A DNA stretch of 24,144 nucleotides from a virus (IMGVR_UViG_3300009788_000296:1-24144); one strand, 5' to 3'; numbered from the stretch's first letter, positions 5,789-21,327 are shown. Numbers and translations are program-made. The notes: generated from the letters alone by a model not told the origin.

Positions 5789-5850
5789 CCGGAGGCCGTT
5801 CCGCTGGCGCGGGCCCGTGAGGGGCTCCTGGGGCGGTCTCCGGTTTTTTT
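5789..5850 (+). terminator. Intrinsic terminator with a GTGAG hairpin at its tip
   Basis: CCGGAGGCCGTTCC (5789-5802) pairs with GGGGCGGTCTCCGG (5830-5843), with four G-T wobbles once the adjoining 5803/5829 pair is counted. Seven Ts follow (5844-5850). Inside it, 5811-5827 folds as GGGCCC-GTGAG-GGGCTC, a member of the loop family described in the findings. It would end the transcript of the HTH gene. Confidence 0.75.
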
Positions 5851-5852
5851 GT

Positions 5853-5865
5853 TCTCGTGAGGAGA
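5853..5865 (+). other. GTGAG-loop leader hairpin (TCTC/GAGA)
   Basis: TCTC-GTGAG-GAGA forms a 4-bp stem around GTGAG just after the terminator. The loop and right arm include the GGAG ribosome site of the zinc-ribbon gene at 5871, so folding could limit its translation. Confidence 0.5.
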
Positions 5866-5870
5866 TGAAG

Positions 5871-6146
5871 ATGATGAGCTCGTCCGACTTGCCGGCGTGT
5901 CCGGCGTGTGGATCCCGAGAGGTCCGAACCGTCCAGGATCCGCCCCGGACCTTCTACGCTTGCGCGCAATGCGGGCGCGACCGGACGGAGGCCTGGGAGG
6001 CCATCCAGCCGCCGCCGGCGCCAGAGAAGACCCCGAAGACGAAGGCCTTCCGCCAGGCCCAGGCGTTCAACCAGGAGGCGAAGGAGCGCCACATGGAAGA
6101 GGATCTCGCCCTGGGGATCGGCGCGACACTCGGGGCCAGCTTGTGA
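5871..6146 (+). CDS. Zinc-ribbon protein, 91 aa
   Basis: Three in-frame ATGs (5865, 5871, 5874) follow GAGGAG; 5871 gives the best spacing (six bases). Residues 8-32 contain CPAC and CAQC separated by 16 residues (ACPACGSREV and FYACAQCGRD), a four-cysteine zinc ribbon. A Pro/Lys-rich linker (PPPAPEKTPKTK) and a charged helical tail (QAFNQEAKERHMEEDLALGIG) follow. Small zinc ribbons of this sort usually bind nucleic acid or RNA polymerase. It overlaps the next gene by GTGA or starts it by reinitiation. The specific role is unknown. Confidence 0.75.
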   Translation: MMSSSDLPACPACGSREVRTVQDPPRTFYACAQCGRDRTEAWEAIQPPPAPEKTPKTKAFRQAQAFNQEAKERHMEEDLALGIGATLGASL

Positions 6147-6499
6147 ACGCGCCCGAGCGTGTCTTCATGGATGAGCGGGTCGCGGCCAGGATGCCGGCGA
6201 GCGAGAGCGACGCCGCCGAGGAGATCGGCCAGGACGTCGAGGTCGTCGCCTACTGGCGCGAGGACATCGTCCTCGAGAGGATCCGCGAAGGCCAGGCCGA
6301 GGCCGAGGAGTTCGCCGTCCAGTTCGAGGTCTACGGCGTCGCGACCTTGCCGGACAACTCCGGGACCTATGCGCCGCTCCTGGTCGTCTTGTCGAACTTC
6401 GGGAGGATCCGCCGCCAGGTCCAGATCGAGGACGGCGACGCCGAAGCCGGCCAGAGGATCGTCTGGGAAGCCGTCGAAGTTCCGGAGCTCAAGACGTGA
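6143..6499 (+). CDS. Unknown acidic protein, 118 aa
   Basis: GTG at 6143 overlaps the upstream TGA (GTGA), the same coupling used by neighbours; an ATG at 6167 is the alternative. The N-terminal 45 residues are acidic. The second half reads as a beta-rich domain (EFAVQFEVYGVATLPDNSG, APLLVVLSNFGRIRRQVQI). The strands alternate and end VWEAVEVPEL. No motif or metal site is seen and no family is recognised. It lies in a run of short coupled genes between a zinc ribbon and winged-helix candidates. Confidence 0.7.
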   Translation: MNAPERVFMDERVAARMPASESDAAEEIGQDVEVVAYWREDIVLERIREGQAEAEEFAVQFEVYGVATLPDNSGTYAPLLVVLSNFGRIRRQVQIEDGDAEAGQRIVWEAVEVPELKT

Positions 6500-6804
6500 G
6501 GGCCTGGAAGAGCGCCGCCACGGATCCCGAGAAGGTCTTCCTCTACTTCCGCGAACACGCCGACAAGTTCTTCACGGAGGACCATGTCGCCGCCCAGATC
6601 CGCGTCGGCCGCCGGCGGACCCGGAGGATCGTCGCCTGGCTCGTCATCGAGGCGAAGCTCGAGTCGATCGAGACCGTGAGCTCGTTCGCCTGGGGCCGGC
6701 CGAAGAAGATGTTCCGCGCGAACCGCGCCGACGACACGATCAACCAGGTCGAGCTCTTCCGCGACCGGATCGCCGCCGCCGGCTTCGGGGATCCCTACGG
6801 ATGA
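6496..6804 (+). CDS. Possible winged-helix DNA-binding protein, 102 aa
   Basis: GTG at 6496 overlaps the previous stop (GTGA). Residues 10-60 read as helix, helix-turn-helix and wing: KVFLYFREHADKFFTEDHVAAQIRVGRRRTRRIVAWLVIEAKLESI, with the turn near VAAQIRVGRRRTRR. A basic patch (GRRRTRR and WGRPKKMFR) supports nucleic-acid binding. The next gene is similar in design, so the two may be paired regulators or replication accessories. The call is by pattern, not family match. Confidence 0.65.
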   Translation: MRAWKSAATDPEKVFLYFREHADKFFTEDHVAAQIRVGRRRTRRIVAWLVIEAKLESIETVSSFAWGRPKKMFRANRADDTINQVELFRDRIAAAGFGDPYG

Positions 6805-7085
6805 CCGTCCGCGACACGAGCGTCCAGGCGTTCCGCGAGAACCTGGCGCGCGGGATCTACGCCAGCCAGAAGGCCGCCCTCTCCGCCCTGGTCGAGATGA
6901 CCGGACCAGGATCTCGGCGCGAACTCGCCGCGCGGTCCGGCTTCGAGATCTCGGCCGTGTGCGGCGCGGTCAACTCCCTCATCAAGACGAACGCCCTCCA
7001 GGATCCGCGCGTCGTGACGTGCAAGAAGACCGGCCGGCCGGTTCACCTGGTCGAGCGCGTTCCGTTCCAGGCGGCGCTCTTCTAG
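6801..7085 (+). CDS. Winged-helix DNA-binding protein, 94 aa
   Basis: ATG at 6801 overlaps the upstream stop (ATGA). Residues 25-75 give a clear helix-turn-helix, ALVEMTGPGSRRELAARSGF then EISAVCGAVNSLIKTN, followed by a wing-like strand pair VVTCKKTGRPVHLVERV. This resembles MarR/ArsR-type or replication-initiator winged helices used by phages to bind DNA. It is translationally coupled to a second winged-helix candidate and a zinc ribbon. Its target is unknown. Confidence 0.7.
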   Translation: MTVRDTSVQAFRENLARGIYASQKAALSALVEMTGPGSRRELAARSGFEISAVCGAVNSLIKTNALQDPRVVTCKKTGRPVHLVERVPFQAALF

Positions 7086-7258
7086 TGTCCGGTCGTTGCC
7101 GAGATTGCGGCGCCATCTTCGACGAGCCGAGCTTCTCCGAAGGTCCGAAGACCTGGGACGAGAACCTCCAGAAGGTCGTCCGCTTCGCCCAGTCGCTCTT
7201 CATGTGTCCCGAGTGTCTCTCGACGAACATCCGGGAAGACGTCCGTCCCGTCGCCTGA
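7085..7258 (+). CDS. Zinc-ribbon microprotein, 57 aa
   Basis: A GTG at 7085 shares one base with the upstream TAG. The 57 residues contain CRDC (5-8) and CPEC (about 43-46) in a classic four-cysteine ribbon, separated by an acidic, aromatic loop (EPSFSEGPKTWDENLQKVVRFAQSLFM). It ends TNIREDVRPVA, and the stop overlaps the next promoter. This is the second small zinc ribbon in the operon. It probably binds nucleic acid or a protein partner; the exact role is unknown. Confidence 0.75.
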   Translation: MSGRCRDCGAIFDEPSFSEGPKTWDENLQKVVRFAQSLFMCPECLSTNIREDVRPVA

Positions 7259-7264
7259 TACACT
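7256..7264 (+). promoter_or_regulatory. Extended -10 promoter TGATACACT
   Basis: TG-A-TACACT overlaps the stop of the zinc-ribbon gene and predicts a transcript start near 7271, just upstream of AGGAG for the gene at 7290. No clear -35 is seen. Confidence 0.4.
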
Positions 7265-7289
7265 GGGCGGACCTTTGCAGGAGAACGAC

Positions 7290-8297
7290 ATGAACGAAAA
7301 AACAGACCAGGCGGTCGTCCTGGTCGAGACTCCCGTCTCGGATAACGGCCACGCCCTCGAGGTCCGCTCGGCCCTCGACATCAAGCCCTCGCTCTTCAAG
7401 GCCGGCCTCGAACGCCGGAAGAAGAACCGGGACTCGCTCATCGAACACATCCGCGAGGCCCTGGTCGAGGGGACCGACTTCGGCCGGATCCACGTCATCA
7501 AGAAGGACCGCTGCCCCGACGGCGCCTTCTGTTCTAACCCCTACCACTTCTCGAAGCCGTCGCTCTGGAAAGCCGGCGCCGAGAAGATCGCCGGGATCCT
7601 CGGGCTCCGTGTCACCTGGCCGACCCTCCGCGCCTACGAGGACCGGATCATCCAGGGCCAGGACGTGAACCAGGTCCTCCTCCGTTGCGAGCTCGTGAAC
7701 TCCGACGGCGTCATCATCGCCGAGGGGATCGGCGGCCGCCTGATTCAACAGGACGGCGACCTCAACAAGGCGCTCAAGATGGCGAAGAAGTCCGGCCAGA
7801 TCGACGCCGTCCTCAACGTCGGAGGCCTCTCCGAGGTCTTCACCCAGGACCTCGAGGACATGGATCCCGAACAACTCGGAGGCCAGCGCGACCCGTTCCA
7901 GCCAGGCGAAGAGCGCGTCGACTCCGCGATCCCCAGGGACGCGAAGCCGCTCTCGACTCATTGCCCGATCGGGCGCGAGTGGAAGGGGACGCCCTGGGAA
8001 GAAGTCGACGACGGCTTCCTCAACTGGATCATCTCGAAGATCGACGACAAGCCCGACCTCCGCGACCGAGCTCTCAAGGAACTCGAGAGCCGATCGGTCG
8101 AGACACCCGAGGCCGCCGAGCGTCGCGTCTCTGCTAAAATGGGAACGAACAAGAAGATCGGGGACTTCGCTCGTGAGCTTTCGCTGGCGAAGACACTCGA
8201 CCAGCTCATCGCCATCACCGACGAGCTCCCCGACGAGTTCGAGCCAGGCCTTCGCGCCTTCATCACCGAACGCGAAGCCGAACTCGGCCCGCAATAA
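7290..8297 (+). CDS. Putative single-strand annealing/recombination protein, 335 aa
   Basis: ATG 7290 has AGGAG at a good distance; an upstream TTG does not. The N-terminal domain carries a signature known from phage genomes and often placed near recombination genes: HFSKPSLWKAGAEKIAGILGL (about 86-106), LLRCELVNSDG, AEGIGGR, NKALKMAKKSGQIDAVLN and FTQDLED (184-190). The order resembles families grouped loosely with Rad52/ERF-like annealing proteins. Residues 227-265 (GREWKGTPWEEVDDGFLNWII) resemble the short 'GK.kG.....VP..YL.WL' domain (DUF3820/exonuclease-X C-terminal type), so this looks like a fusion. Its partner is probably the next gene. The annealing role is inferred; no biochemical motif proves it. 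Confidence 0.55.
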   Translation: MNEKTDQAVVLVETPVSDNGHALEVRSALDIKPSLFKAGLERRKKNRDSLIEHIREALVEGTDFGRIHVIKKDRCPDGAFCSNPYHFSKPSLWKAGAEKIAGILGLRVTWPTLRAYEDRIIQGQDVNQVLLRCELVNSDGVIIAEGIGGRLIQQDGDLNKALKMAKKSGQIDAVLNVGGLSEVFTQDLEDMDPEQLGGQRDPFQPGEERVDSAIPRDAKPLSTHCPIGREWKGTPWEEVDDGFLNWIISKIDDKPDLRDRALKELESRSVETPEAAERRVSAKMGTNKKIGDFARELSLAKTLDQLIAITDELPDEFEPGLRAFITEREAELGPQ

Positions 8298-8302
8298 TTA
8301 GC

Positions 8303-8317
8303 GGCCCGTGAGGGGCC
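8303..8317 (+). other. GTGAG-loop leader hairpin (GGCCC/GGGCC)
   Basis: A perfect 5-bp stem, GGCCC-GTGAG-GGGCC, sits in the leader of the gene at 8329 and directly before its AGGAG. An AATAAT box at 8293-8298 would start transcription at or inside this hairpin, placing it at the 5' end of the message. Confidence 0.6.
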
Positions 8318-8328
8318 AGGAGTACAAC

Positions 8329-9045
8329 ATGGAAACCAACACCCAGAAGTCGCTCGCGATCGCCGAGCTCAACCCGATCGTCACCGACATCGCGGCCTTC
8401 GCCGGCACGATCGAAGGGATCGACGTCGCCGACGAAGAGACCCAGGGCCAGGTCGGCGACCTGGTGAAGATGATGAACCACAGACGGAAGAAGCTCGAGG
8501 ACAAGCGGACCTCGCTCGTCGCGCCGCTCAACGCCGTCGTGAAGGACATCAACGCGCTCTTCAAGCCGCCACGCGATCGGATCGACGAGATCGTCCAGAT
8601 CGCGAAGAAGAAGATGAACCGATTCGCCCAGGCCCAGGTCGCCCTCGAGGCGGAGAAGAAGCGGATCGAGAGGGAGGAAGCGGAGACCGAGCGGAGGGAG
8701 GCCCAGGAACTCGCCGACGCGCTACGCGCGAAGGCCGGCCCCGAAGCCGAGGTCGTCGCCGAGGTCGTCGTCGAGGAGGCCGAGAAGAAGGTCGAGAAGG
8801 CGGCGGCTCCGGCGCGAGTCGCCCCGACCAGGGGACGCGAGTCGAGCGTCATCGTGTCGAAGACCTGGAAGGCCGAGGTCGTCGACATCCTCGAGCTCGC
8901 GAAAGCCGTCGCGGCTGGTAAACTTCCGACCCGCGTCCTCGAGCCGAACATGACCGCCCTCAACGACATCGCCCGCGAGAAGAAGGACCCCGGCACGATC
9001 GACGGCGTCCGCTTCTACGAAGACGTCACGACGAGCGTCCGATGA
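8329..9045 (+). CDS. Coiled-coil phage protein, recombination-linked family, 238 aa
   Basis: ATG 8329 is chosen for its AGGAG; an upstream GTG lies in the leader hairpin. Residues 40-75 (MNHRRKKLEDKRTSLVAPLNAVVKDINALFKPPRDRID) lead into a long charged coiled coil (about 85-165). The C-terminal domain runs GRESSVIVSKTWKAEVVD, then LEPNMTALNDIAREKK and IDGVRFYED. This arrangement is common in phage proteins encoded beside single-strand annealing genes; most are unannotated. The role is probably in DNA recombination with the upstream gene. It overlaps the next start (ATGA). Confidence 0.65.
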   Translation: METNTQKSLAIAELNPIVTDIAAFAGTIEGIDVADEETQGQVGDLVKMMNHRRKKLEDKRTSLVAPLNAVVKDINALFKPPRDRIDEIVQIAKKKMNRFAQAQVALEAEKKRIEREEAETERREAQELADALRAKAGPEAEVVAEVVVEEAEKKVEKAAAPARVAPTRGRESSVIVSKTWKAEVVDILELAKAVAAGKLPTRVLEPNMTALNDIAREKKDPGTIDGVRFYEDVTTSVR

Positions 9046-9374
9046 AGAGCCAGTTCTCGAACGAGAGGCGGGGACCAGTCCGCGCGGACTTCCTCCTCCA
9101 GGTCGACGAGCCGGCGAAGCTCATCCGGATCATCGACCAGGATCTCGGCGGGATGTCCGTCACGAACGACCTCGAGGCCGTCCTCCGCGAGGTCTCGCTC
9201 CAGATCGACGCCGCGCTTCCCGAGTATTCCGTCATCTACCGCGACTCGACCGGAACCTGGGACGCGATCATCGTGAAGGCTCACGACGTTCTCGCGCACA
9301 CCTGGACCTTCGAGGTCCGGCCCGGACCAGGCCCGGAGACGGAGACCCGCGACCCGATGGCGAGATCTCGATGA
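9042..9374 (+). CDS. Unknown protein, 110 aa
   Basis: ATG 9042 overlaps the upstream stop. Mixed alpha/beta appearance: FLLQVDEPAKLIRIIDQDLGG, then a helix EAVLREVSLQIDAALPEYSVIYRDSTG and a strand WDAIIVKAHDVLAHTWTFEV. The tail is Pro/Glu/Arg-rich and probably disordered. It lies in a coupled run behind the annealing-type genes, so a DNA-metabolism role is possible, but no motif shows this and no family is recognised. Confidence 0.7.
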   Translation: MKSQFSNERRGPVRADFLLQVDEPAKLIRIIDQDLGGMSVTNDLEAVLREVSLQIDAALPEYSVIYRDSTGTWDAIIVKAHDVLAHTWTFEVRPGPGPETETRDPMARSR

Positions 9375-9787
9375 GCGCCGGCGTCGTCATCAAGGTCGAC
9401 AACTCGGTCGAGCGGACCGCCTGGACGCGCCTCCTCGAGGCGTTCCGGATCTCGGAGATCTACGAGCTCCCAGGCCTCGGCCAGCCGCTCGAGAAGTCGA
9501 TCAAGATCGAGACCCTCTCGGACCTGGCGAACTACCACGAAGCCGACCTGGTCGTCCTCGCGGCGATCGACGGCGACTTCGTCCAGGGCCAGCGCGCGCT
9601 CGTCTCGTTCGAGCATCCGGAGGAGGCGATCTACATCTTCGGCGGCTCGATGACCAGGCTCTCCCAGGCCGACCTCCTGGGCGAGACGATCGTCGAGTCC
9701 CTCTACATCGAGGCCGGCGATCTGTTCCCGAGCCAGGCCGGCGCGGTCGTTCTCTGGGACCGCTACGTCAAGCGGCTCCTCCTATGA
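9371..9787 (+). CDS. SPOUT/SpoU-like protein (possible RNA methyltransferase), 138 aa
   Basis: ATG 9371 overlaps the previous stop. The second half follows the pattern of the knotted SPOUT methyltransferase fold: DLVVLAAIDGDFVQGQRALVSF, then HPEEAIYIFGG (82-92, the position of the 'lvlGsE' AdoMet loop), then VESLYIEAG (the position of 'v.IP') and AGAVVLWDRYVKRL (123-136, where SpoU enzymes have 'N.s.A..i.lye'). Phage proteins with this HPE.A.YIFG signature have been labelled SpoU-like. The catalytic N of motif 3 is not obvious and the AdoMet loop is altered, so it may be inactive or have another role. The fold is moderately supported; activity is uncertain. Confidence 0.45.
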   Translation: MSAGVVIKVDNSVERTAWTRLLEAFRISEIYELPGLGQPLEKSIKIETLSDLANYHEADLVVLAAIDGDFVQGQRALVSFEHPEEAIYIFGGSMTRLSQADLLGETIVESLYIEAGDLFPSQAGAVVLWDRYVKRLLL

Positions 9788-10044
9788 GCGACGAGCTCGT
9801 GGCCGCCGGCTTCTGGTTCCTCCTGGGCTTCTTCGTCGCCTCCTGGCTGGCGTACAAGTCCCAGGCGAAGCGGCGGATCCAGTCGCTCGAGTCGTTCCGG
9901 ACCGCGAAGAGCGAGATCCTCAAGCTCCTCCAGGACGTCCGGGAAGTCACCGAGATCCGTGTCACAATTCACGACGAGGACGGCGAGCTCGAGGTCACGA
10001 CCGAAGAGGCCCCTCTTCCTCCCCCGAAGAAGGACCTCCACTAG
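9784..10044 (+). CDS. Membrane-anchored protein, 86 aa
   Basis: ATG 9784 overlaps the previous stop. One transmembrane helix near the start (AGFWFLLGFFVASWLAY, about 8-24) is followed by a basic stretch KSQAKRR, so the body should face the cytoplasm. A helix (SLESFRTAKSEILKLLQDV), a strand pair (EIRVTIHDEDGELEVTTEE) and a Pro/Lys tail follow. It is the last gene before a strong terminator. No family is recognised. Confidence 0.7.
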   Translation: MSDELVAAGFWFLLGFFVASWLAYKSQAKRRIQSLESFRTAKSEILKLLQDVREVTEIRVTIHDEDGELEVTTEEAPLPPPKKDLH

Positions 10045-10067
10045 ATCCAGGCGTTCGCGTATCCTCG

Positions 10068-10097
10068 AGGCCCCGCTCAACGGCGGGGCCTTTTTTT
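10068..10097 (+). terminator. Intrinsic terminator
   Basis: A perfect 9-bp stem (AGGCCCCGC at 10068-10076 with GCGGGGCCT at 10083-10091) with a six-base loop is followed by a run of Ts ending at 10097. It closes the operon that ends with the membrane-anchored protein. It lies just upstream of the ribosome site at 10104, so the next gene needs read-through or a promoter that was not identified. A TATCCTCG box at 10060-10067 precedes it. Confidence 0.85.
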
Positions 10098-10114
10098 CGC
10101 GCCAGGAGAACGTC

Positions 10115-10759
10115 ATGAAGATCCTCACCCTCACCCTCATCCTCATCGCGTCGCCGGCATGGTCGACCGGCGGCGGAGATCCGGATCCGAACCAGGAACA
10201 ACACCAGGGCCAGGAGCAAGGCCAGGAGCAAGGCCAGCACCAGGGCCAGGAGACGACCGTCATCACCGAGGCCTCGATCGCCGAGGGAGCCGTCACGATC
10301 AACCAGAACCGGGAGGCCCAGGGCGACTACGAGGTCAAGTTCCGCAACAACCCGAACGTCTACTCGCCGGCGATCCAGCCGACGATCTCCTGTTATAAAA
10401 CGGGCGGAGGCGGCGCGTCGGGCGGCGGCGTCGGGCTCTCGTTCGGCGGCGGGAAGATCGACTCGGCTTGTGTCGAGCGCGAAGAGATCCGGCTCGGCCA
10501 TCTACTCGGCCACGAGGAGGTCGCGCTCTTCCGCTATTGCAACCTCGAGAACAACGTCGCGGCCTTCGGCTCGGCGCTGGCTTGCATCACCTACGACTCG
10601 AGCCCGGCGTCGTCGGAATACCAGCTCCTTCTCACCGAGAAGAACCGGCTCGAGCGCGAGCTCCGTGAGACTCACGAGCTCATGGTCTCGAGATGCCAGG
10701 CCGCGGAAGAAGCCGGCGAGCGGACCGAGGAAGCCTGGCTGGAGTGTCTCGCAAAATAG
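10115..10759 (+). CDS. Secreted Gln-rich, cysteine-containing phage protein, 214 aa
   Basis: ATG 10115 has AGGAG. The product begins with a signal peptide (MKILTLTLILIASPAWS, cleaved near residue 17), then a QG/EQ-rich repeat (about 24-45). A core follows with VYSPAIQPTISCYKTGGGG and GLSFGGGKIDSACVEREEIRLG, then RYCNLENNVAAFG. A C-terminal coiled coil (EKNRLERELRETHELMVSRC) ends it. Six cysteines suggest periplasmic disulfides. Unannotated phage proteins with the same plan (signal peptide, Q-rich repeat, APS/SPAI..CYK core) are often found near lysis genes. It lies directly before the endolysin, so it may act in the periplasm at lysis or in envelope blocking. Function is not known. Confidence 0.75.
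   Translation: MKILTLTLILIASPAWSTGGGDPDPNQEQHQGQEQGQEQGQHQGQETTVITEASIAEGAVTINQNREAQGDYEVKFRNNPNVYSPAIQPTISCYKTGGGGASGGGVGLSFGGGKIDSACVEREEIRLGHLLGHEEVALFRYCNLENNVAAFGSALACITYDSSPASSEYQLLLTEKNRLERELRETHELMVSRCQAAEEAGERTEEAWLECLAK
10208..10252 (+). repeat. 12-base in-frame tandem repeat
   Basis: GGCCAGGAGCAA occurs twice perfectly (10208, 10220), then degenerates (10232) and ends in a partial copy (10244-10252). It encodes the QEQG repeat of the secreted protein. Such repeats can change length by slippage. Confidence 0.75.
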
Positions 10760-10762
10760 CGA

Positions 10763-10768
10763 TAGACT
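10763..10768 (+). promoter_or_regulatory. Candidate -10 box TAGACT
   Basis: TAGACT followed by CG, four bases after the stop of the secreted protein, predicts a transcript start near 10775. That is the first base of the GTGAG hairpin, ahead of the endolysin gene. The same TAGACTCG precedes the capsid gene. Confidence 0.45.
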
Positions 10769-10775
10769 CGGCGCT

Positions 10776-10790
10776 CGGCCGTGAGGGCCG
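10776..10790 (+). other. GTGAG-loop leader hairpin (CGGCC/GGCCG)
   Basis: A perfect 5-bp stem, CGGCC-GTGAG-GGCCG, would form the extreme 5' end of the endolysin/lysis message if the TAGACT box is used. The leader continues about 45 bases to AGGAGG and ATG 10838. Confidence 0.65.
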
Positions 10791-10837
10791 TTAGTCACTC
10801 GAAGCCGGCCCCAGGGCCGCGAATCCAGGAGGCCCTC

Positions 10838-11281
10838 ATGTCCTTCCAGTACGGCGCAGGATCCCAGAAGAAGCTCGACACCGTTCACCCGGACCTCGCC
10901 GACGTGTTCGCCCTGGCGATCACGCGGACGCCCTACGACATCACGATCGTCCACGGCTGGCGCGGCGAGGAGATCCAGAACGCCCTCGAGGACTCCGGCG
11001 CGTCGACGAAGAGGTTCCCGGACTCGTATCACAACCAGACAACGGACCCGTCGATCCCGGACCCCGAGGAGGTCTCGGACGCGGTCGACTTCGCGCCCTA
11101 CATCGACGGGAAGATCCCCTGGGGCGAGACTCACATCTTCGCCGCGATCGCCGGCGTCGTCTTCTGTTGCGCCGCCGAGCTCGGCGTCGCGATCGACTGG
11201 GGCGGCGACTGGGACGGCGACGGCAACACGAAGGAGCATAAGCTCCAGGACTGGGGCCACATCCAGAGGAGACGCGGATGA
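10838..11281 (+). CDS. Endolysin, M15-family peptidoglycan peptidase, 147 aa
   Basis: ATG 10838 has AGGAGG. The sequence matches the VanY/M15C layout: SYHNQ with H65 (position of the SxH ligand), SDAVDFAPY with D84, the core helix FAAIAGVVFCCAAELGVAI, then DWGGDWDGDG and LQDWGHIQ with D138 and H141. H65, D84 and H141 should bind zinc; D138 is the likely catalytic acid. These enzymes cut the L-Ala-D-Glu or D-Ala crosslink of peptidoglycan from the cytoplasmic side after holin opening. The 147-residue length is normal. No signal peptide or SAR helix is present. It overlaps the next gene by ATGA. Confidence 0.9.
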   Translation: MSFQYGAGSQKKLDTVHPDLADVFALAITRTPYDITIVHGWRGEEIQNALEDSGASTKRFPDSYHNQTTDPSIPDPEEVSDAVDFAPYIDGKIPWGETHIFAAIAGVVFCCAAELGVAIDWGGDWDGDGNTKEHKLQDWGHIQRRRG

Positions 11282-11730
11282 AGAAGTTCTCGGAACACTC
11301 GGGCGGGATCCAGCTCGCCCAGATCCTCGGGGTCATGGGCTTCATCTTCGGCGTCGGCGGGTCCTTCATGATCTGGGCCGCGGACGCGAAGATCGACGAA
11401 AAATACGCGACCGACGCGGATCTCCTGGCCGTTCAACAGACGACGAGCGCCCAGGTCACGGTCCTCACGACGACCGTCCAGGAGAACACGACGACCGTCA
11501 AGGCCACGGCGAGCTCGGTCGACGGGCTCACCCTGGTCGTCCTCGGCCTCCAGATGACCGACCTCGAGAGCGAGGTCTCGGCGCTCGAGAAGGAGAAGCG
11601 CGACCAGGGCGCCGGCTGGAACGAACGAGACGAACGCAACCTTCGCGACCGCCAGAGATCCCTCTCGGATCTCGAGCGCCAGCGCGGGATCATCCTCGAC
11701 CGATTACTCGCCGCGGATCCGGAGCCGTGA
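11278..11730 (+). CDS. Membrane protein with coiled coil, lysis-cassette, 150 aa
   Basis: ATG 11278 overlaps the endolysin stop. One transmembrane segment (AQILGVMGFIFGVGGSFMIWAA, about 14-35) is followed by a Thr-rich stretch (QTTSAQVTVLTTTVQENTTTV) and a long C-terminal coiled coil (LESEVSALEKEKRDQG and RDRQRSLSDLERQRG). It is not the inner spanin, which is encoded later, but it sits inside the lysis cassette. It may be an antiholin or pinholin partner. No family is recognised. Confidence 0.65.
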   Translation: MKKFSEHSGGIQLAQILGVMGFIFGVGGSFMIWAADAKIDEKYATDADLLAVQQTTSAQVTVLTTTVQENTTTVKATASSVDGLTLVVLGLQMTDLESEVSALEKEKRDQGAGWNERDERNLRDRQRSLSDLERQRGIILDRLLAADPEP

Positions 11731-12097: not shown

Positions 12098-12100
12098 AGC

Positions 12101-12910: not shown

Positions 12911-12932
12911 AGTAGCGAGCCGCGCCGCGCGA

Positions 12933-13084: not shown

Positions 13085-13087
13085 ATG

Positions 13088-13393
13088 ATGGCGAGAACAG
13101 AAGAACAGAAGGCCCGCCGGCGAGAGCGCGATCGGGAACGACGCGACGAGCTCCAGGCCGCGCGACCAGCTCCCGAAGAGGACCGCCCGCCGATCCCGGC
13201 CTTGAAGGTTCAACGGATGGGGAAGCTCTTCCGGATCGCCTACGCCGAGACGCGCAACCTCGCGAAGTACAACTCCGGCGACCCCGTCGACGGCGGCGGC
13301 TTCGACGACGAGACCGACGCCCAGATCTTCCTCTCGAAGGTCCTCGGCGAACAAGGTCCGACCCGTGACGCGGAGGCGGAGGGAGTCGGCTAG
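13088..13393 (+). CDS. Unknown basic-N-terminus protein, 101 aa
   Basis: ATG 13088 is six bases after AAGGAG; an ATG at 13085 is only three away. The first 20 residues are strongly basic and helical (ARTEEQKARRRERDRERRDELQ), then a Pro-rich link, then a compact region (LFRIAYAETRNLAKYNSGD and TDAQIFLSKVLGEQG). It may bind nucleic acid or membranes through the basic helix. It is joined to the next gene by TAGTG. No family is recognised. Confidence 0.65.
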   Translation: MARTEEQKARRRERDRERRDELQAARPAPEEDRPPIPALKVQRMGKLFRIAYAETRNLAKYNSGDPVDGGGFDDETDAQIFLSKVLGEQGPTRDAEAEGVG

Positions 13394-13958: not shown

Positions 13959-14398
13959 AGGTCCTCGACGTCCGACCGACGCCGGCGCCCAGGCAAAGCC
14001 AGCGCGACAAGTGGGCGCCCTCGAAGGCCGTCCAGATCTACCGCGCCTTCCGTGACGAGATCGGCTACAAGCTCCAGGAGCTCCCCGCGGACTTCTTCCA
14101 TGTCGTGTTCGTGATCCCGATGTCGGCCTCCTGGTCGGAGAAGAAGAAGCGCGAGTTCGTCGGCCAGCCTCACGAGCTCAAGCCGGACGCGGACAACCTG
14201 GTCAAGGCGCTCATCGACGCCGTCTATCGTGACCGAGAGGACTCCCAGGTCTGGAACTATGCGACGACGAAGCTCTGGGGCTACACCGGCGCGATCTTGA
14301 TCTCCGACGACTTCCTCCCGTTCTACGAGCTCCCCGTCGATCTTGCCGAACTGGTTCGGGGATCCTGGGAAGTGTACGATCGGAAGCCCGTCGTGTGA
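13955..14398 (+). CDS. RusA-like Holliday-junction resolvase, 147 aa
   Basis: ATG 13955 overlaps the previous stop. Motifs match the RusA family: FFHVVFVIPMSASWSEKKKREFVGQPHELKPDADNL with KPDADN at 76-81, then KALIDAVY and DREDSQVW. The aspartates D78 and D80, plus one of D93/D96, would form the acidic site equivalent to D70, D72 and D91 of E. coli RusA, which cuts four-way junctions as a dimer. In phages it resolves recombination intermediates and clears branched DNA before packaging. It lies directly upstream of the terminase genes, which fits that role. Usual length is about 120-150. Confidence 0.9.
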   Translation: MKVLDVRPTPAPRQSQRDKWAPSKAVQIYRAFRDEIGYKLQELPADFFHVVFVIPMSASWSEKKKREFVGQPHELKPDADNLVKALIDAVYRDREDSQVWNYATTKLWGYTGAILISDDFLPFYELPVDLAELVRGSWEVYDRKPVV

Positions 14399-14404
14399 GA
14401 CGAC
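14390..14404 (+). other. GTGAG-loop hairpin (GTCGT/ACGAC) before terminase
   Basis: A perfect 5-bp stem, GTCGT-GTGAG-ACGAC, covers the stop codon of the RusA-like gene and ends four bases before the GGAGG of the small terminase gene. It could couple or limit translation between the two. Confidence 0.6.
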
Positions 14405-14410
14405 CTCGGA

Positions 14411-14423
14411 GGCCGTGATGGCC
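14411..14423 (+). other. GTGAT-loop hairpin covering the terminase start
   Basis: GGCC-GTGAT-GGCC (4-bp stem) has the ATG of the small terminase in its loop and part of GGAGG in its left arm. It is a variant of the GTGAG hairpin family. Confidence 0.4.
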
Positions 14424-14939: not shown

Positions 14940-16365
14940 AGCCGAACGAGCTCGCCGAGGCCTCGGCCTCCACGACTTCATCCGCGACGCCTGGAAGTGG
15001 GTCGACCCGATCGAGGGCGTCTTCGGCCGCTACACGCGGGCGCTCTGCTGGACCCTCGAGCAAGTCCTCCAGGGCCGGATCCGCCGGCTCATCATCAACG
15101 TCCCGCCCGGTCACATGAAGAGCCTCACCGTGTCGGTCTTCTGGCCGGCCTGGGCCTGGCTCATGAAGCCCGAGATCCGCTTCGCCTTCACGTCTTACCG
15201 TGGCGACCTGGCGCTTCGAGACGCCGATCGCTCTCGGGATCTCATCCGCTCGGAGTTCTATCAGGAGCTCCTCCTGGGCCGGCCGAAGAAGTGGGCGCTC
15301 CTCCGAACCGGCCAGGACACGAAGAGCCGCTTCGCGAACAACCAGGGCGGCTACAGGTTCTCGAGCGCGGTCGCCGGCATCATGGGAGAAGGCGGCGACA
15401 TCGTCGTCCTCGACGATCCTCACAACGTCGAGCAAGCCGAGAGCGACTCGGTCCGCGACGAGACCGTCCGGAAGATCCGCCTCGCGCTCCCGACCAGGGT
15501 CCGGTCGAAGACCGGCGCGATCGTCATCATCATGCAACGGTTACACCCGCAAGATCTCACCGGCGTCTTCCTGGACGAGGAGGGCGAGCTCTGGACTCAC
15601 TTGTGTCTTCCCGCGCGCTTCGAGCCCGATCATCCTCACCCGTGTCCGTTCGACTGGCGCCGGCAACCTGGCGAGCTCCTCTTCCCGGAGCTCTTCAACT
15701 CGACCAGGCTCGACGAGCTCGAGACCGGCCTCACCGAGTACGGCGTCGCGGGCCAGCTTCAACAACGTCCTCATCCGCGCGAGGGCGGAATGATGAAGCG
15801 CGACGACTTCAAGATCATCGACGCCGGCGACGTTCCGAAGGGCGGGACGATCGTCCGGGGCTGGGACCTGGCGGCGACCGACGCGAAGGCGCAAGACGCG
15901 AAGAAGGCCGCCTGGACGGTCGGCTTGCGTCTCCGCTACGTCGGGCGCAAGATCTACATCGAGGACGTGATTCGTCTCCGAGGCTCCCCGCATAAAGTCC
16001 GGACAACAATGAGAACCGCGGGGAACAACGACGGGAAGGTCGTCATCATCGACTTCCCGCAGGATCCCGGCCAGGCTGGCAAGGCCCAGGCGGAGGACAT
16101 CGCCGCGGACTTCCCAGACCGTCGGATCTTCTACTCGCCCGAGAGCGGAGCGAAGGAGGTCCGAGCCGAGGCTCCCGCGGCTCAAGTCGAGGCCGGGAAC
16201 GTGTACCTCGTTCGCGGCGCCTGGAACGGCGTGTTCCTGGATGAGGCCGCGGCCTTCCCTGGGTCCACGTTCAAGGACCAGGTCGACGCCTTCTCGAGAG
16301 CGTATCATCGCGCCGTCAGACAACCACGACGCCCGAGATCGGGCTCGATTAGAGGAGCCGCTTGA
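14914..16365 (+). CDS. terL: Terminase large subunit, 483 aa
   Basis: ATG 14914 lies in the small-subunit gene. ATPase motifs: Walker A NVPPGHMKS (62-70) with the deviating PPGHMKS form common to many TerL, and Walker B DIVVLDDPH (162-170). The nuclease domain starts at GWDLAATDA (about 316-324) and holds VIIDFPQDPGQAG (377-389), giving the acidic residues of a RNase H-like fold. The enzyme pumps DNA into proheads and cuts concatemers. Length is normal. It ends in TGATG with the portal gene. The C-terminal 20 residues are basic. Confidence 0.95.
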   Translation: MSSALARIRAERARRGLGLHDFIRDAWKWVDPIEGVFGRYTRALCWTLEQVLQGRIRRLIINVPPGHMKSLTVSVFWPAWAWLMKPEIRFAFTSYRGDLALRDADRSRDLIRSEFYQELLLGRPKKWALLRTGQDTKSRFANNQGGYRFSSAVAGIMGEGGDIVVLDDPHNVEQAESDSVRDETVRKIRLALPTRVRSKTGAIVIIMQRLHPQDLTGVFLDEEGELWTHLCLPARFEPDHPHPCPFDWRRQPGELLFPELFNSTRLDELETGLTEYGVAGQLQQRPHPREGGMMKRDDFKIIDAGDVPKGGTIVRGWDLAATDAKAQDAKKAAWTVGLRLRYVGRKIYIEDVIRLRGSPHKVRTTMRTAGNNDGKVVIIDFPQDPGQAGKAQAEDIAADFPDRRIFYSPESGAKEVRAEAPAAQVEAGNVYLVRGAWNGVFLDEAAAFPGSTFKDQVDAFSRAYHRAVRQPRRPRSGSIRGAA

Positions 16366-18086
16366 TGAGTACACAAGACCAGCCGACGAGCTTGATCCTT
16401 CCGAACGCGACCGCGCCCTTCCAGGCGGGGATCACGACACCGCCCCAGTCCGCCCAGGGCGGCTCGAACATCTCCGACCCTCACCCAGATCACAACGCCA
16501 GGCGCTCGGACTGGGTCGTCATGTTCGACGCGAACGAAGGCCAGCGACACATCAAGTCGAAGACGACCCAATACTTGCCCGCGACCTCGGGGATGAGGGC
16601 GCTCTCGAGCTCGGCGACGAAGCTCGACCAGGAGGGGCTCGCGCTTTATACCGCCTACTTGACGCGCGCCTTCTTCCCGGATCTCGTGAAGGAGACCGTC
16701 CGGGCCCTCACCGGGATCCTCGACCGGGAGCCCGCGAACATCGAACTCCCCGAGGCCCTCGAGGACATGAGGGAGCTCGCCACGCCGAAGGGCGAGTCGC
16801 TCAACGATCTCCTCGTCCAGATCCACATCAACCAGCTCCTCTACGGTCGGCTCGGTCTCCTCCTGGACGTCGACGCGAACCGGGACCTCCCGCTCATCGT
16901 CCGCTACCCCGCGCCCCAGATCCTCAACTGGGACGACCTCACGGTCACGAACGACATCAAGCAACAAGACGACGCGAAGCGGAGCGAGGCGGTCCGCCGG
17001 CTTCTCATGGTCGTCCTCGACGAGACGCGCTTCGAGCGCGACACCGGCAACACCTACACCTGGAACCTCGTCCCGCGCTACCGCGTCCTCAACCTGGGCG
17101 AGGCCGAGGCGAACGTCTACACGACGCAAGTCGAGCGCGACGGAGCTCTCCAGGCGGCGGTCCAGCCGTCGATCCGCGGGAAGACCTTCGAGGAGATCCC
17201 CTTCACGTTCATCAACACGACCGACCTCGCGACCCAGCCGGGCGAGGTCCCGCTCATCAACCTCGCGAACCTGGGGCTCGCCATCTACCGCGGCGAAGCC
17301 GATCACCGGAGCGCGCTCTTCATGTCCGGCCAGGACACGCTCGTCATCACGGGCTACGACATCTCGGCCGGATCCTCGGAGAACCCCGGCGACAACGAGG
17401 CCCCGATCATCGGCTCGGGCGCCTACTTGAACATCCCGGACCCGGAGGGCGACGCGAAGTTCATCGGGCCCGACTCGAACGCCTTGAGCGAACAACGGAC
17501 GAGCCTCGAGGACGACTACAGGCGAGCCGGCGAGGAGGGGATCAAGCTCCTCTCGAGTGGCGCCGGCGCGGAAGCCGCCGAGACTCTCCGGATCCGAGTC
17601 GCGGGCCGGACGGCCACGCTCCAGACGATCGCCATGACCTCGGCGACCGGCCTCGAGACGGCCCTCCGCCAGGCGGCGGTCTGGGTCGGCGCGGATCCCG
17701 AGGAGGTCAAGGTCGAGCCGAACCTGGACTTCATCACCGAGGACCAGGATCCCGCGGACCTCATCGCCTTCGCCACGGCGAAGAAGTCGAAGGTCCCGCT
17801 CTCCTGGAAGTCGGTCCACAACTGGCTCCGCCAGAAGGACTTCACCGAGCTCACCTTCGAGGAGGAGCTCGAACAGATCGACGAGGAGGCCGACATCGAC
17901 GCCTTCGACACGGGCGGCGACGCCTTCCTGGGCGAACCAGGAGAACCAGGAGCGCCGGCTGGAGATCTCAACAACCCGGCAATGGTCGCCCAGCGCGCGG
18001 CGGCGATCGAAGCCGCCGGCGGAGCGCCAGAAGGCGACCCAGCCCAGCCAGGCGCCGGAGGAGACCAGGGCGACGCCGAGGAGTAG
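16365..18086 (+). CDS. Portal protein, DUF4055-like, 573 aa
   Basis: ATG 16365 is taken over an in-frame TTG one codon earlier, as AGAGGAG lies seven bases before it. The body matches DUF4055-type phage portals: FFPDLVKETVRALTGILDR near 100, the NWDD and RFERDTGNTYTWN region, then EEIPFTFINTTDL, PLINLANLGLAIYRGEADH (about 305-325), GYLNIP-like loops and YRRAGEEGIKLL. Twelve copies form the DNA channel at the capsid vertex. The C-terminal 60 residues are low-complexity, including GEPGEPGAPAG (collagen-like) and an acidic end. It lies between terminase and Mu gpF-like gene, the standard order. Confidence 0.85.
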   Translation: MSTQDQPTSLILPNATAPFQAGITTPPQSAQGGSNISDPHPDHNARRSDWVVMFDANEGQRHIKSKTTQYLPATSGMRALSSSATKLDQEGLALYTAYLTRAFFPDLVKETVRALTGILDREPANIELPEALEDMRELATPKGESLNDLLVQIHINQLLYGRLGLLLDVDANRDLPLIVRYPAPQILNWDDLTVTNDIKQQDDAKRSEAVRRLLMVVLDETRFERDTGNTYTWNLVPRYRVLNLGEAEANVYTTQVERDGALQAAVQPSIRGKTFEEIPFTFINTTDLATQPGEVPLINLANLGLAIYRGEADHRSALFMSGQDTLVITGYDISAGSSENPGDNEAPIIGSGAYLNIPDPEGDAKFIGPDSNALSEQRTSLEDDYRRAGEEGIKLLSSGAGAEAAETLRIRVAGRTATLQTIAMTSATGLETALRQAAVWVGADPEEVKVEPNLDFITEDQDPADLIAFATAKKSKVPLSWKSVHNWLRQKDFTELTFEEELEQIDEEADIDAFDTGGDAFLGEPGEPGAPAGDLNNPAMVAQRAAAIEAAGGAPEGDPAQPGAGGDQGDAEE

Positions 18087-18089
18087 AAC

Positions 18090-19253
18090 GTGGCGCACAC
18101 GTCGAACACCGACATCCGCGACCAGCTCATCGCGCACCAGATCGGGCTCCTCCGCTTCTCGAAGGGGCTCTCGGGCCGGATCATCGCGCTCCTCAATCGG
18201 TCCGAACCCGAGCTCGCGGCCAGGCTCAAGGCCCGGCTCGATCGGATCGCCGCGCTCAACAACGACCCAGGCCCGGCAACGACCCGCCGGCTCATCGTCA
18301 CCCAGCGCCTCATCAAGGGGATCCTCGACCCGACCTGGAAGTCGATCAACGAGATCATCCGGAGGGAGCTCGTCGGCCTGGCGTTCGGCGAGACGTTCTT
18401 CATCCAGGGCGTCGTCTCCGACGCGCTTCCCGTCCTGGTCACGCCGGCGATCCCGTCACCGAAGGAGCTCCGCGGGATCGTCTTCGCTCGGCCGTTCAAT
18501 AACCGGATCCTCCGAGACTGGACCGGGACCTTCCAGCTCGGCGACCGCCGGCGCATGATGGACGAGATCCGCCAGGGCCTCCTCTTCAACGAGACGCCGA
18601 CCCAGATCGGGAAGCGGATCTTCGGGACGCGGGCCCTCGGCGGCGCCGACGGCGTCCGGGCGATCACCAGGCGCGGAGCCCAGACGCTCGCCCAGACCGC
18701 GACCTCCGCGATCTCGAACGGCGTCCGCTCGGCGCTCTACAAGGCGAACAAGAGATTCATCCGGCGCGAACAATACGTCGCGACCCTGGACTCGAGGACG
18801 ACGCCGATCTGTCAGTCGCTCGACGGCGACGTCTTCAAGACGGGGACCGGGCCGATCCCGCCGATCCACATCAACTGTCGGAGCATCCGCGTCCCGGTCA
18901 TCGACGGGCGCAAGCTCGGGAAGCGCCCGGCGAGCCGCGCAACGGAGCGCGAACTTCGCGGACTTCGAGGTCCAGCCCGCCGGCGCGCCGTCGAGAAGCT
19001 CGTCGGGCCGGTCCCTGGAACGACGACCTATCAGGACTTCCTCAAGAACTCGAAGGCGAGCTTCCAGGACGACGTCCTGGGGCCAGCTCGCGGGAAGCTC
19101 TTCCGCTCTGGCGAGATAGACCTCAAGGGCTTCGTCGACAATTCCGGCCAGCGCCTCACGCTTCGCCAGCTCTACGACACGGACCCCGGCGCCTTCCAGC
19201 GGTCCGGCGTCCCCGCGCCGCCGGCGCTGGACGCTCCCAGGCCGGCGCGATGA
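18090..19253 (+). CDS. Mu gpF-like head morphogenesis protein, 387 aa
   Basis: GTG 18090 has GAGGAG. The C-terminal half has the conserved gpF-like motif: RREQYVATLDSRTTPICQSLDGDVFKTGTGPIPPIHINCRSIRVPV (about 226-270), a Cys/His region, then YQDFLKNSKASFQDDVLG and FVDNSGQRLTLRQL, known from phage minor head proteins. The N-terminal part (ARLKARLDRIAALN) is helical. Such proteins enter the prohead and assist capsid or DNA-ejection functions. Located after the portal, as is typical. The end is Pro/Ala-rich. Confidence 0.85.
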   Translation: MAHTSNTDIRDQLIAHQIGLLRFSKGLSGRIIALLNRSEPELAARLKARLDRIAALNNDPGPATTRRLIVTQRLIKGILDPTWKSINEIIRRELVGLAFGETFFIQGVVSDALPVLVTPAIPSPKELRGIVFARPFNNRILRDWTGTFQLGDRRRMMDEIRQGLLFNETPTQIGKRIFGTRALGGADGVRAITRRGAQTLAQTATSAISNGVRSALYKANKRFIRREQYVATLDSRTTPICQSLDGDVFKTGTGPIPPIHINCRSIRVPVIDGRKLGKRPASRATERELRGLRGPARRRAVEKLVGPVPGTTTYQDFLKNSKASFQDDVLGPARGKLFRSGEIDLKGFVDNSGQRLTLRQLYDTDPGAFQRSGVPAPPALDAPRPAR

Positions 19254-19266
19254 TCCTCTTCTGGCT

Positions 19267-19290
19267 TTGACATAAGTCTCGCGTTATAGT
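19267..19290 (+). promoter_or_regulatory. Candidate promoter for scaffold/capsid genes (TATAGT)
   Basis: TATAGT followed by CG (19285-19290) predicts a transcript start near 19297, just before the GTGAG hairpin. A perfect TTGACA at 19267 is only 12 bases upstream, too close for a normal sigma-70 -35, so it may be chance or an operator. Confidence 0.45.
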
Positions 19291-19298
19291 CGGCGCGA

Positions 19299-19311
19299 TC
19301 CTGTGAGAGGA
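19299..19311 (+). other. GTGAG-loop leader hairpin (TCCT/AGGA)
   Basis: TCCT-GTGAG-AGGA, a 4-bp stem, starts close to the predicted transcript start and its right arm holds the AGGA ribosome site for the scaffold gene. Arm sequence is unlike the GC-only members, yet pairing and loop are retained. Confidence 0.55.
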
Positions 19312-19319
19312 AGACCGAG

Positions 19320-20156
19320 ATGACCCTCGAAGCCACAATTCAAGACAAGGCGAAGATCCCGGAAGGGCTCGCCGCTCACTACGTCGAAGCCGACGGCGTC
19401 TTCACCCTGGACGTGAAGGGGATGAAGACCCAGAAGGACTTCGACGACTACGCCGAGGCCTTGAAGAAGCGGCTCACCGACGCCGGCGCCGACTTCGCCA
19501 GGAAGCAAGGGGCCGGACTATCGCGCGACGATGTCCTCGAGATCATCGAGGGCTCGATGAAGAAGTTCATCAAGCCGGGCGCGAAGCCTGGCGACGGCAA
19601 CGGAGCCGGCAACGGGGAAGGCGGGGACGTCGACGGACGCCTCCACGATCTCGAGCGGAACCTGGCCTCGGTCACGAAGGAGCTCGACACCGCGAAGAAG
19701 GAACGCGACGACGCCCTGGGAAAATCGAAAGACACAACAATACGAAACCAGCTAACCCAGGCCGCCAACGCCGCCGGCGCGACGCCGGAGGGAGTCACGA
19801 ACCTCGTCTCGTTGATCGAGACGAACTTCGAGGTCGCTCAAGACGGGAGCGTCGTCACGAAGCTCGAGGCCGGGGCCGGAGTGAGTCCGAACCAAAAGCC
19901 CGAGGACTTCCTGGCGGCGGTCGCGCGCCAGAAGGACTTCCGGATGTTCTGGCCGAAGTCGGCCGGAGCCGGAGCGGATGGCGACGGGGCGGGAGGCCCT
20001 GGCGCCGGCGGAGATCTCGGGAAGGGGAACCCCTTCTCGAAGGCCGGCTGGAACATGACGAACCAGGGCAAGATCTACACCGCCAACAAGCCCGAAGCCG
20101 AGCGCCTCATGAAGGCCGCCGGCGTAGAACTAGGCGCGGTCGCTCCTGTAAGGTAG
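19320..20156 (+). CDS. Capsid scaffold-like protein, 278 aa
   Basis: ATG 19320 has AGAGGAAG. The sequence fits phage scaffolds: an N-terminal beta-like region (GLAAHYVEADGVFTLDVKG), a long charged coiled coil (DLERNLASVTKELDTAKKERDDALG, about 103-135), then a helix with QLTQAANAAGATPEGV and an acidic, Gly-rich segment, and an end with WNMTNQGKIYTANKPEAERLMKAAG that may bind coat protein. It precedes the major capsid gene, the normal order. Role is assigned from the pattern and position. Confidence 0.8.
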   Translation: MTLEATIQDKAKIPEGLAAHYVEADGVFTLDVKGMKTQKDFDDYAEALKKRLTDAGADFARKQGAGLSRDDVLEIIEGSMKKFIKPGAKPGDGNGAGNGEGGDVDGRLHDLERNLASVTKELDTAKKERDDALGKSKDTTIRNQLTQAANAAGATPEGVTNLVSLIETNFEVAQDGSVVTKLEAGAGVSPNQKPEDFLAAVARQKDFRMFWPKSAGAGADGDGAGGPGAGGDLGKGNPFSKAGWNMTNQGKIYTANKPEAERLMKAAGVELGAVAPVR

Positions 20157-20159
20157 ACT
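20154..20159 (+). promoter_or_regulatory. Candidate -10 box TAGACT before the capsid gene
   Basis: TAGACT followed by CG overlaps the scaffold stop codon and predicts a start near 20166. It is identical over eight bases to the box before the endolysin leader. A dedicated promoter would suit a highly expressed coat protein. Confidence 0.4.
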
Positions 20160-20179
20160 CGCGCAAGTAAACACCGCCA

Positions 20180-20192
20180 GGCCGTGAGGGCT
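20180..20192 (+). other. GTGAG-loop leader hairpin upstream of capsid gene
   Basis: GGCC-GTGAG-GGCT has three Watson-Crick pairs and one G-T. It lies about 14 bases into the predicted capsid leader and 30 bases before ATG 20222. Confidence 0.5.
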
Positions 20193-20221
20193 CGGCTCAA
20201 CGTAACGAGAAGGAGACCCTC

Positions 20222-21283
20222 ATGGCCGAAGTAAGAGTCGCGGACGTCGTAGTCCCCGAGATCTTCGCCCCCTACGTCCGAACCCTCACCGAACAGAAGA
20301 CCGCCTTGATCGAATCGGGCGTCGTTGTTCGGGATCCAGCTCTCGACGGGTTCCTTGCGGGCGGCGGGACATCATTCAATGCGCCCTCATGGCGAGACAA
20401 CGACGACGACTCGAACATCCTCGCCGATCGAGTCTCGAGCGATAACCCGGCGACCGTAGCAACCCCGGCGAACATCCAGTCGAACCAGGAGATCGCGAGA
20501 CGCCTCTCGCGGAACCAGTCCTGGAAGACTATGGACCTCGCCGCCGCGCTTGCGGGAGACGACCCCGCGAACTCAATCGCGGCGAACGTCGCCGCCTACT
20601 GGCGCCGCCGCCTCCAGGCCGTCTTCGTGGCAACCTGGACCGGCATCTTCGCCGACAACGCCCAGGTCACACCGAACGACGACCCGCGCGCCGGCATCAC
20701 CAACAACGCCGCCCAGGACGACCTCACCGTCGACATCTCGGGCGCGTTCACGCCTGGCGTGACCGACTTCTCCGCGGAGGCGTTCATCGACGCCATCACG
20801 ACCGCCGGCGATTCCCAGAGCGACTTCGTCGCCGTCATGATGCACTCGATCGTGTTCTCGAAAGCCCAGAAGAACAACTTGATCGACTTCATCCCGGACT
20901 CATCGAACGCCCTCGCCGCGGACATCCCGACCTTCCTCGGCCGGCGCGTTATCGTCGATGATTCCATGCCGAACGCCGCGGGCGTCTTCGACACCTGGAT
21001 CTTCGGCGCGATGGCCTCGCGCTGGGGCGTCGGGAACCCGAAGGTCCCGGCCGAGGTAGACCGTGAGCCAGGACAAGGCAACGGCGGCGGAGGCGAGGAG
21101 CTCTTCTCGAGGATCGAATGGTCGATGCACCCAGTCGGCCACAACTTCCTCGCCGGCTCTGTTGGCAACCCCGACGGCGGTCCGACGAATGTCGAGATCG
21201 GCGACGGCGTGAACAACTGGGCCCGCACCTTCCCCGAGAGGAAACAGATCAAGGCCGCGCGCCTTGTGACGACCGAGTTCTAG
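20222..21283 (+). CDS. Major capsid protein, 353 aa
   Basis: ATG 20222 has AAGGAG. It starts VVVPEIFAPYVRTLTEQKTALIESGVVV, which is a typical opening of phage coat proteins, then GGGTSFNAPSW (44-57). Middle: LAAALAGDDPANSIAANVAAYWRRRLQAVFVATWTGIFADN (helical 'spine' area). Later: FVAVMMHSIVFSKAQKNNLIDFIPD, RRVIVDDSMPN and an end RTFPERKQIKAARLVTTEF. This is the HK97-type fold family used as main shell protein. It has its own leader and follows the scaffold gene. Confidence 0.9.
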   Translation: MAEVRVADVVVPEIFAPYVRTLTEQKTALIESGVVVRDPALDGFLAGGGTSFNAPSWRDNDDDSNILADRVSSDNPATVATPANIQSNQEIARRLSRNQSWKTMDLAAALAGDDPANSIAANVAAYWRRRLQAVFVATWTGIFADNAQVTPNDDPRAGITNNAAQDDLTVDISGAFTPGVTDFSAEAFIDAITTAGDSQSDFVAVMMHSIVFSKAQKNNLIDFIPDSSNALAADIPTFLGRRVIVDDSMPNAAGVFDTWIFGAMASRWGVGNPKVPAEVDREPGQGNGGGGEELFSRIEWSMHPVGHNFLAGSVGNPDGGPTNVEIGDGVNNWARTFPERKQIKAARLVTTEF

Positions 21284-21308
21284 TTCACCCTTGAACACCG
21301 TGTCGGAG

Positions 21309-21327
21309 GCCGGCCGTGATGGCCGGC
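21309..21327 (+). other. GTGAT-loop leader hairpin (GCCGGCC/GGCCGGC)
   Basis: A perfect 7-bp stem around GTGAT lies after the capsid gene and before the gene at 21356. No T-run follows, so it is not a normal terminator. It is the strongest stem of the hairpin family. Confidence 0.55.

Follow-up and report, generated by a model that had tools for sequence, protein, structure and literature searches.

The closest described mechanism, judged by anatomy, to the element reported here is the N/boxB antitermination of the lambdoid phages lambda, P22 and phi21. The element is a family of short hairpins enclosing a near-fixed GTGAG pentaloop, dispersed over a 24,144-base viral record of IMG/VR (IMGVR_UViG_3300009788_000296; 66% G+C), the whole of which we call the window. 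Like boxB, these are small promoter-proximal phage hairpins whose GNRA-like loop exceeds four nucleotides and is closed by a pyrimidine-purine pair. The initial annotation of the window had drawn the same comparison; it holds as a general mode only, and a strict boxB/N system is not supported: boxA is lacking, stems differ between sites, no clade-wide N-like protein was identified, and the sites number ~7–10 in the window's genome.

Other systems share part of this layout. The leader operators of CsrA/RsmA combine a fixed loop with variable stems in 5′ leaders, often over the Shine–Dalgarno (SD) sequence, and provide many targets for one protein, as we propose here. CsrA sites require GGA in the loop, and the loops GTGAG, GCGAG, GTGAT, GTGAC, GCGAT and GAGAC all lack it, so this system was rejected. 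The Smaug recognition element, a eukaryotic SAM-domain target with a CNGGN loop, is likewise dispersed, with a fixed pentaloop, a variable stem and one reader protein, an analogy of mode only. The put RNA of phage HK022 also lies in nascent leader RNA just 3′ of a phage promoter; it measures ~70 nt and has two long stem-loops of shared sequence (PMC9378689), and is excluded by the single hairpins of 13–21 nt with variable stems found here. The SAS/ESAS elements of cluster K mycobacteriophages are short, dispersed before many starts within one phage group and mostly in one orientation. SAS is a conserved linear 13-mer, GGGATAGGAGCCC, 3–7 bp before starts in the non-structural half of the genome, with function unknown (PMC3203893); it too is excluded, given that here the arms vary freely around a fixed loop and the covarying hairpin stands largely at virion and lysis genes. 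No description of the hairpins was found in open papers, and the window contains no Rfam 15 family at gathering score; the RNA element is apparently undescribed.

A loop census of the window, requiring at least four closing Watson–Crick pairs, ranked GTGAG first of all 1024 pentamer loops: 8 of its 30 copies are stem-closed against 0.26 expected, and the runner-up loop has 3. Across 1,200 Markov resamplings (orders 1, 2 and 3, 400 each) the maximum was 2 for GTGAG and 7 for any of the 1024 loops. The same excess was seen in related contigs gathered through their TerL (64 of 262 copies with stems, 1.6 expected) and capsid proteins (71 of 322, 2.2 expected), two sets that share some contigs; in the relatives' census, loops of 3, 4 and 6 nt gave no signal comparable to that of pentaloops. 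All nine hairpins listed in the initial annotation are present with the arms given there, those at 5811 and 20180 needing one G·U pair each, and its view that both pairing and loop are selected is supported by the census, the resampling, and the orthology and covariation tests described below. Shuffled sequence did not prove equally rich in such hairpins, nor was conservation in relatives lacking, the two outcomes that had been named as grounds for abandoning the family. GC-rich DNA often contains isolated short hairpins, and the start-codon sub-type at 14411 partly follows from GGAGG plus ATG GCC; even so, an origin by chance in G+C-rich sequence, or as a by-product of SD or start-codon sequence, is hardly credible, being contradicted by the census, the location counts and the Markov resampling alike and refuted for the main leader class (8303, 10776, 14390, 19299 and 20180) by the covariation and orthology tests.

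The location of the hairpins was assessed in 11 long contigs, namely the window and 10 relatives. Hairpin-bearing GTGAG accounted for 32 of 107 copies in sense leaders (0.67 expected), 13 of 59 in other intergenic DNA (0.35 expected) and 13 of 138 in sense coding DNA (0.91 expected), and stood at chance level on the antisense strand (3 of 494 copies, 3.2 expected). The sense-leader excess bears out the placement in leaders proposed earlier. The earlier statement that copies within genes mostly lack stems was also right, although two copies with 4-bp stems inside window genes (loops at 19881 and 22085) had been overlooked. The first belongs to a hairpin-forming GTGAG/GTGAC at 19877–19889 of the scaffold gene that recurs in relatives, where synonymous third positions seem to covary (GGA/AGT, GGC/ACG, GGG/AGC). 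By script-made gene calls, no hairpin precedes any of 271 genes with an upstream gap of 10 nt or less, and 41 of 147 genes with gaps of 11–90 nt have one.

Orthologous leaders retain the loop at high frequency. In addition to the capsid, TerS, exonuclease and endolysin families (fractions in Table 1), GTGAG occurs in 11 of 13 leaders of the tail protein MSDTNRVG and in some of those of the portal and scaffold genes; in the capsid leaders at least three pairs are formed in 35. Stem-bearing GTGAG was found in none of 44 TerL leaders, and the 48 head morphogenesis leaders contain no GTGAG copy whatever.

Stems measure 4–8 bp and vary freely in sequence, even inside one phage, and their arms change together. 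Under a mild pairing filter, 79 distinct hairpins gave a covariation score of 0.79, against 0.24 with arms shuffled and at most 0.20 with partners slid; in 110 rows taken without a filter, 85% of the inner four pairs are formed, compared to 52% (maximum 59%) after arm shuffling. Shuffles confined to gene families were exceeded as well, the arms covarying in the capsid, exonuclease, endolysin, tail and scaffold families. Among hairpins with a single non-Watson–Crick site in the inner four pairs, 17 had G·U, 3 A·C and 5 another mismatch, with a background in which G·U equals A·C. This tolerance of G·U over A·C indicates function on the sense strand, as RNA or, less likely, as the non-template DNA strand, and a DNA operator for a protein was rejected as the principal explanation because the arms vary with pairing kept and G·U is favoured. 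We consider it very unlikely that the active form is not RNA but a hairpin of the non-template strand at the early elongation stage, on the model of RfaH/ops. Neither the strand asymmetry of G·T tolerance nor promoter proximity separates DNA from RNA, but the stems reach 8 bp with internal mismatches, an ops-type hairpin in the transcription bubble would be shorter than that, and many hairpins overlap the SD sequence or the start codon.

The loop had been described as an invariant GTGA(G/T). GTGAG is indeed near-fixed, and diverged orthologues widen the rule: scaffold leaders that lost GTGAG have GCGAG (in nine cases) or one of GCGAT, GAGAC and GTGAT, for the most part on stems of 5–8 bp. GTGAC is found in the exonuclease leader of contig L014 and the L128 tail leader, GTGAT in the L126 tail leader. 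The scan that returned these leaders used a lower stem threshold for GNGAN loops, and most of those listed have 5–8 pairs. Positions 1, 3 and 4 (G, G, A) are invariant and positions 2 and 5 variable, so that the rule is GNGAN, usually GUGAG, which at the level of sequence corresponds to the GNRA rule plus one 3′ nucleotide. The closing pair is nearly always pyrimidine-purine (CG 75, TA 32, CA 13 and TG 6 of 131). Pentaloops with GNRA-like folds are known, one of them having an insertion after the fourth base (PMC12550061), and by the GNRA rule the GNGAN loop should adopt a GNRA turn with an extra 3′ nucleotide. The earlier reading of GUGA as a GNRA-type loop is thus supported by the rule from diverged leaders, with the three-dimensional fold a prediction; under the same proviso the hairpins share the boxB trait of a GNRA-like loop of 5–6 nt in nascent leader RNA.

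Many of the hairpins follow a promoter-like box. For 24 of 57 hairpins, with a peak at 14 nt, a TAnnnT sequence ends 9–24 nt 5′ of the loop, compared to 1 of 36 stemless GTGAG copies. Tail leaders (9 of 9) and most TerS leaders have a spacing of 14 nt and the main scaffold group one of 12 nt; in capsid leaders, with their longer stems, it is ~24–26 nt. The standard start of sigma-70-type promoters lies about 7 nt 3′ of the -10 box, and a start at that distance would put the beginning of the hairpin at about +1 to +10; the box upstream of the loop would therefore place many hairpins near the mRNA 5′ end. A plain stabiliser, in which a 5′-end hairpin blocks 5′-end-dependent decay and the loop is kept for stability alone, was one of the functions offered in the initial annotation. 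It fits the promoter-proximal position, with a likely start ~0–10 nt 5′ of the hairpin, and the lack of hairpins at genes without an upstream gap of their own. The near-invariant loop is left unexplained: it remains GNGAN while stems change completely, and other loops and loop lengths, including stable tetraloops, are not enriched in leaders. We therefore regard a stabilising role by itself as unlikely.

Structure, strand, association with leaders and promoters, the loop rule and clade-wide conservation were all computed directly. The combination of freely varying stems and a fixed loop suggests that a single trans-acting factor recognises the loop and backbone, and we consider it moderately probable that the dispersed hairpins are operators read by one such putative factor, phage- or host-encoded, which would control the units' output jointly. 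We infer the factor itself, as well as the direction and level of control. In the main gene units a promoter (-10 TAnnnT) would be followed by the short hairpin close to where the mRNA begins, and this by the SD sequence and the gene, and the factor would recognise loop and backbone instead of stem sequence. Where a hairpin overlaps the SD sequence, binding could alter SD access and so affect translation; in a terminator-like leader it might act by read-through; and for a hairpin upstream of the SD window, read-through, stability or recruitment would be more likely. Protection of the mRNA 5′ end is an alternative action. More tentatively, the hairpin may be a clade-wide 5′ tag, its GNRA-type loop read on most promoter-led units by a dedicated factor, either encoded by the phage or recruited from the host, switching or favouring phage expression in a new RNA–protein system unrelated to N/boxB or Csr; this stronger version is possible, though we hold it to be doubtful.

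Several points weigh against operators read by one factor. Searches for a binding factor were negative, although the regulator target suggested by the initial annotation is the best-fitting reading. Certain orthologous leaders have no hairpin, that of gene 22536 in the window among them. In 21 of 48 cases the hairpin extends into the SD window and in 26 it lies upstream, and no single mode of action is therefore evident. The -10 boxes and transcription starts are read from sequence, the weak T-n-G signal that precedes the box by 17 nt (a hint of a -35 element) is dominated by capsid leaders, and the gene calls on the contigs were made by a simple script, many of the contigs being fragmentary.

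Processive antitermination of the N/boxB type would have a phage peptide bind the GNRA-like loop of the nascent leader and modify RNA polymerase, enabling it to pass terminators further downstream. Promoter proximity, the GNRA-like loop with its pyrimidine-purine closing pair, and terminator-like structures in the region, one of which contains a GTGAG arm, are consistent with this, as is a small protein with an Arg-rich N-terminus encoded in the window subclade. Against it, boxA is absent beside the hairpins: within 40 nt downstream the best match is typically 4–5 of 8 bases, with no consistent element in any gene family, and the upstream side, checked through shared 6-mers only, returned -10-like words. 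Stem sequence differs within one genome, and because many units own a promoter, read-through seems less needed. The small protein (13085–13393) has a conserved core with an invariant V-Q-R-x-G...R-I-x-Y motif and, in the window subclade only, the Arg-rich N-terminus reminiscent of N-type peptides; it has no Pfam, PHROG or fold match (a structure model was compared). The Arg-rich part is not clade-wide, being absent from hairpin-bearing relatives, which counts against the protein as the N-like regulator of the clade. Taken together, we give this mechanism only a small chance. A second candidate regulator, an 82-aa basic protein (4072–4320, minus strand) with weak similarity to ribosomal protein bS21 in its C-terminal half (Pfam E 0.028, which misses the cut-off), was rejected since it occurs in close relatives only.

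The nine hairpins had been presented as one family. Five of them form the main leader class, those at 14411 and 21309 are other sub-types, and 5811 and 5853 make up a double element (Table 1).

Table 1. Hairpins and promoter-like boxes of the window, with their occurrence in orthologous leaders.
Feature	Position	Strand	Remarks
Terminator-like branched hairpin CCGGAG...CTCCGG, then U7	5789–5850	+	Three-way fold
GTGAG hairpin GGGCCC/GGGCTC, one G·U	5811–5827	+	Nested within 5789–5850
GTGAG hairpin TCTC/GAGA	5853–5865	+	Overlaps SD of Zn-ribbon gene 5871–6146
GTGAG hairpin GGCCC/GGGCC	8303–8317	+	Directly 5′ of SD, exonuclease-like gene 8329–9045; 10/13 orthologous leaders, stems changed
-10-like box TAGACT	10763–10768	+	Inferred; 12 nt 5′ of loop
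GTGAG hairpin CGGCC/GGCCG	10776–10790	+	Leader of endolysin gene 10838–11281; 9/13 orthologous leaders
-10-like box TACGAT	14375–14380	+	Inferred; 14 nt 5′ of loop
GTGAG hairpin GTCGT/ACGAC	14390–14404	+	TerS leader; 11/13 orthologous leaders
GTGAT hairpin GGCC/GGCC	14411–14423	+	Includes TerS ATG 14418–14420; start-codon sub-type
-10-like box TATAGT	19285–19290	+	Inferred; 12 nt 5′ of loop
GTGAG hairpin TCCT/AGGA	19299–19311	+	Overlaps SD of scaffold gene 19320–20156
-10-like box TAGACT	20154–20159	+	Inferred; overlaps scaffold stop codon; TAnnnT kept in nearly all clade members
GTGAG hairpin GCC-A-GGCC/GGCT-C-GGC	20176–20196	+	Leader of major capsid gene 20222–21283; 38/40 orthologous leaders
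Intercistronic GTGAT-loop hairpin	21308–21328	+	3′ of capsid stop codon; stem kept in clade, loop not

The double layout at 5789–5870, in which a branched hairpin and its U7 precede a GTGAG hairpin that covers the SD sequence, is found with different sequences in ~ten relatives, although automatic alignment of these divergent leaders was poor. Before the small Zn-ribbon gene it looks like an attenuator, judging from the predicted folds; a U-run after the stem, a trait of intrinsic terminators, is present for 5789–5850, and no U-run follows any other leader hairpin in the window. Across relatives the outer pair of 14411–14423 varies among G-C, A-T and G·T. In the capsid leader, the hairpin first delimited as 20180–20192 extends to its tabulated ends with one A·C mismatch. 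The 21309 hairpin keeps its stem in relatives with many loops (TTCG, TGCG, GTTTAAAC and others); because of this diversity it is, on present evidence, probably not a family member and should not be counted as one. The scaffold promoter region (19266–19290) shows a conserved TTGACATAA just 5′ of the -10 box, and the corresponding region of contig L077 an inverted-looking TTATGTCAA; these could be a candidate activator site.

The window encodes exonuclease-like, endolysin, terminase, portal, head morphogenesis, scaffold and capsid proteins and no tRNA. Its closest cultured relatives by the capsid gene are Queuovirinae-type phages (~54% identity), and a capsid protein search of GTDB genomes for a host found no relative. 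Two contig groups are probably complete genomes, as indicated by terminal direct repeats: one near-identical to the window (G001; L109–L111; 144-base repeat, ~44.7 kb) and another (G002; L112–L114; 102-base repeat, ~45.4 kb).

Outside the clade the hairpin family was not found in more distant TerL and capsid relatives, and no enrichment was seen in the cultured phages PaMx25, SeppeHuegi, Siara, MiCath, Vibrio K251 g3, Shewanella S0112 and Rhizobium RHph_TM3_3_9. The Nipunavirus PaMx25 (L102) has a lone GTGAT hairpin in its TerS leader (1826–1840), which could be a coincidence or a relic. When viral contigs were scanned for a GTGAG stem followed by SD and ATG, most of the unrelated contigs returned held just the bait copy. 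A GTGAA control scan gave 42 matches against 10 for GTGAG, an excess that probably reflects the frequent codon pair GTG AAG; the pattern of stem, SD and ATG alone is therefore without power to identify the family. One contig found through that control (L196) has three 4-bp stems and no recognisable leader context. A covariance model of 17 positions (R1) recovers the window sites, with E-values too weak for database-scale searching.

Overall, these results position the hairpin as a well-supported RNA element that marks many major gene units across a whole phage clade. Should a single factor recognise it, the phage would coordinate its virion, lysis and recombination genes after the onset of transcription via a GNRA-type loop, and the hairpin could serve as bait for finding that factor. 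A loop census of this kind can detect regulatory hairpins too short for ordinary RNA-family searches.

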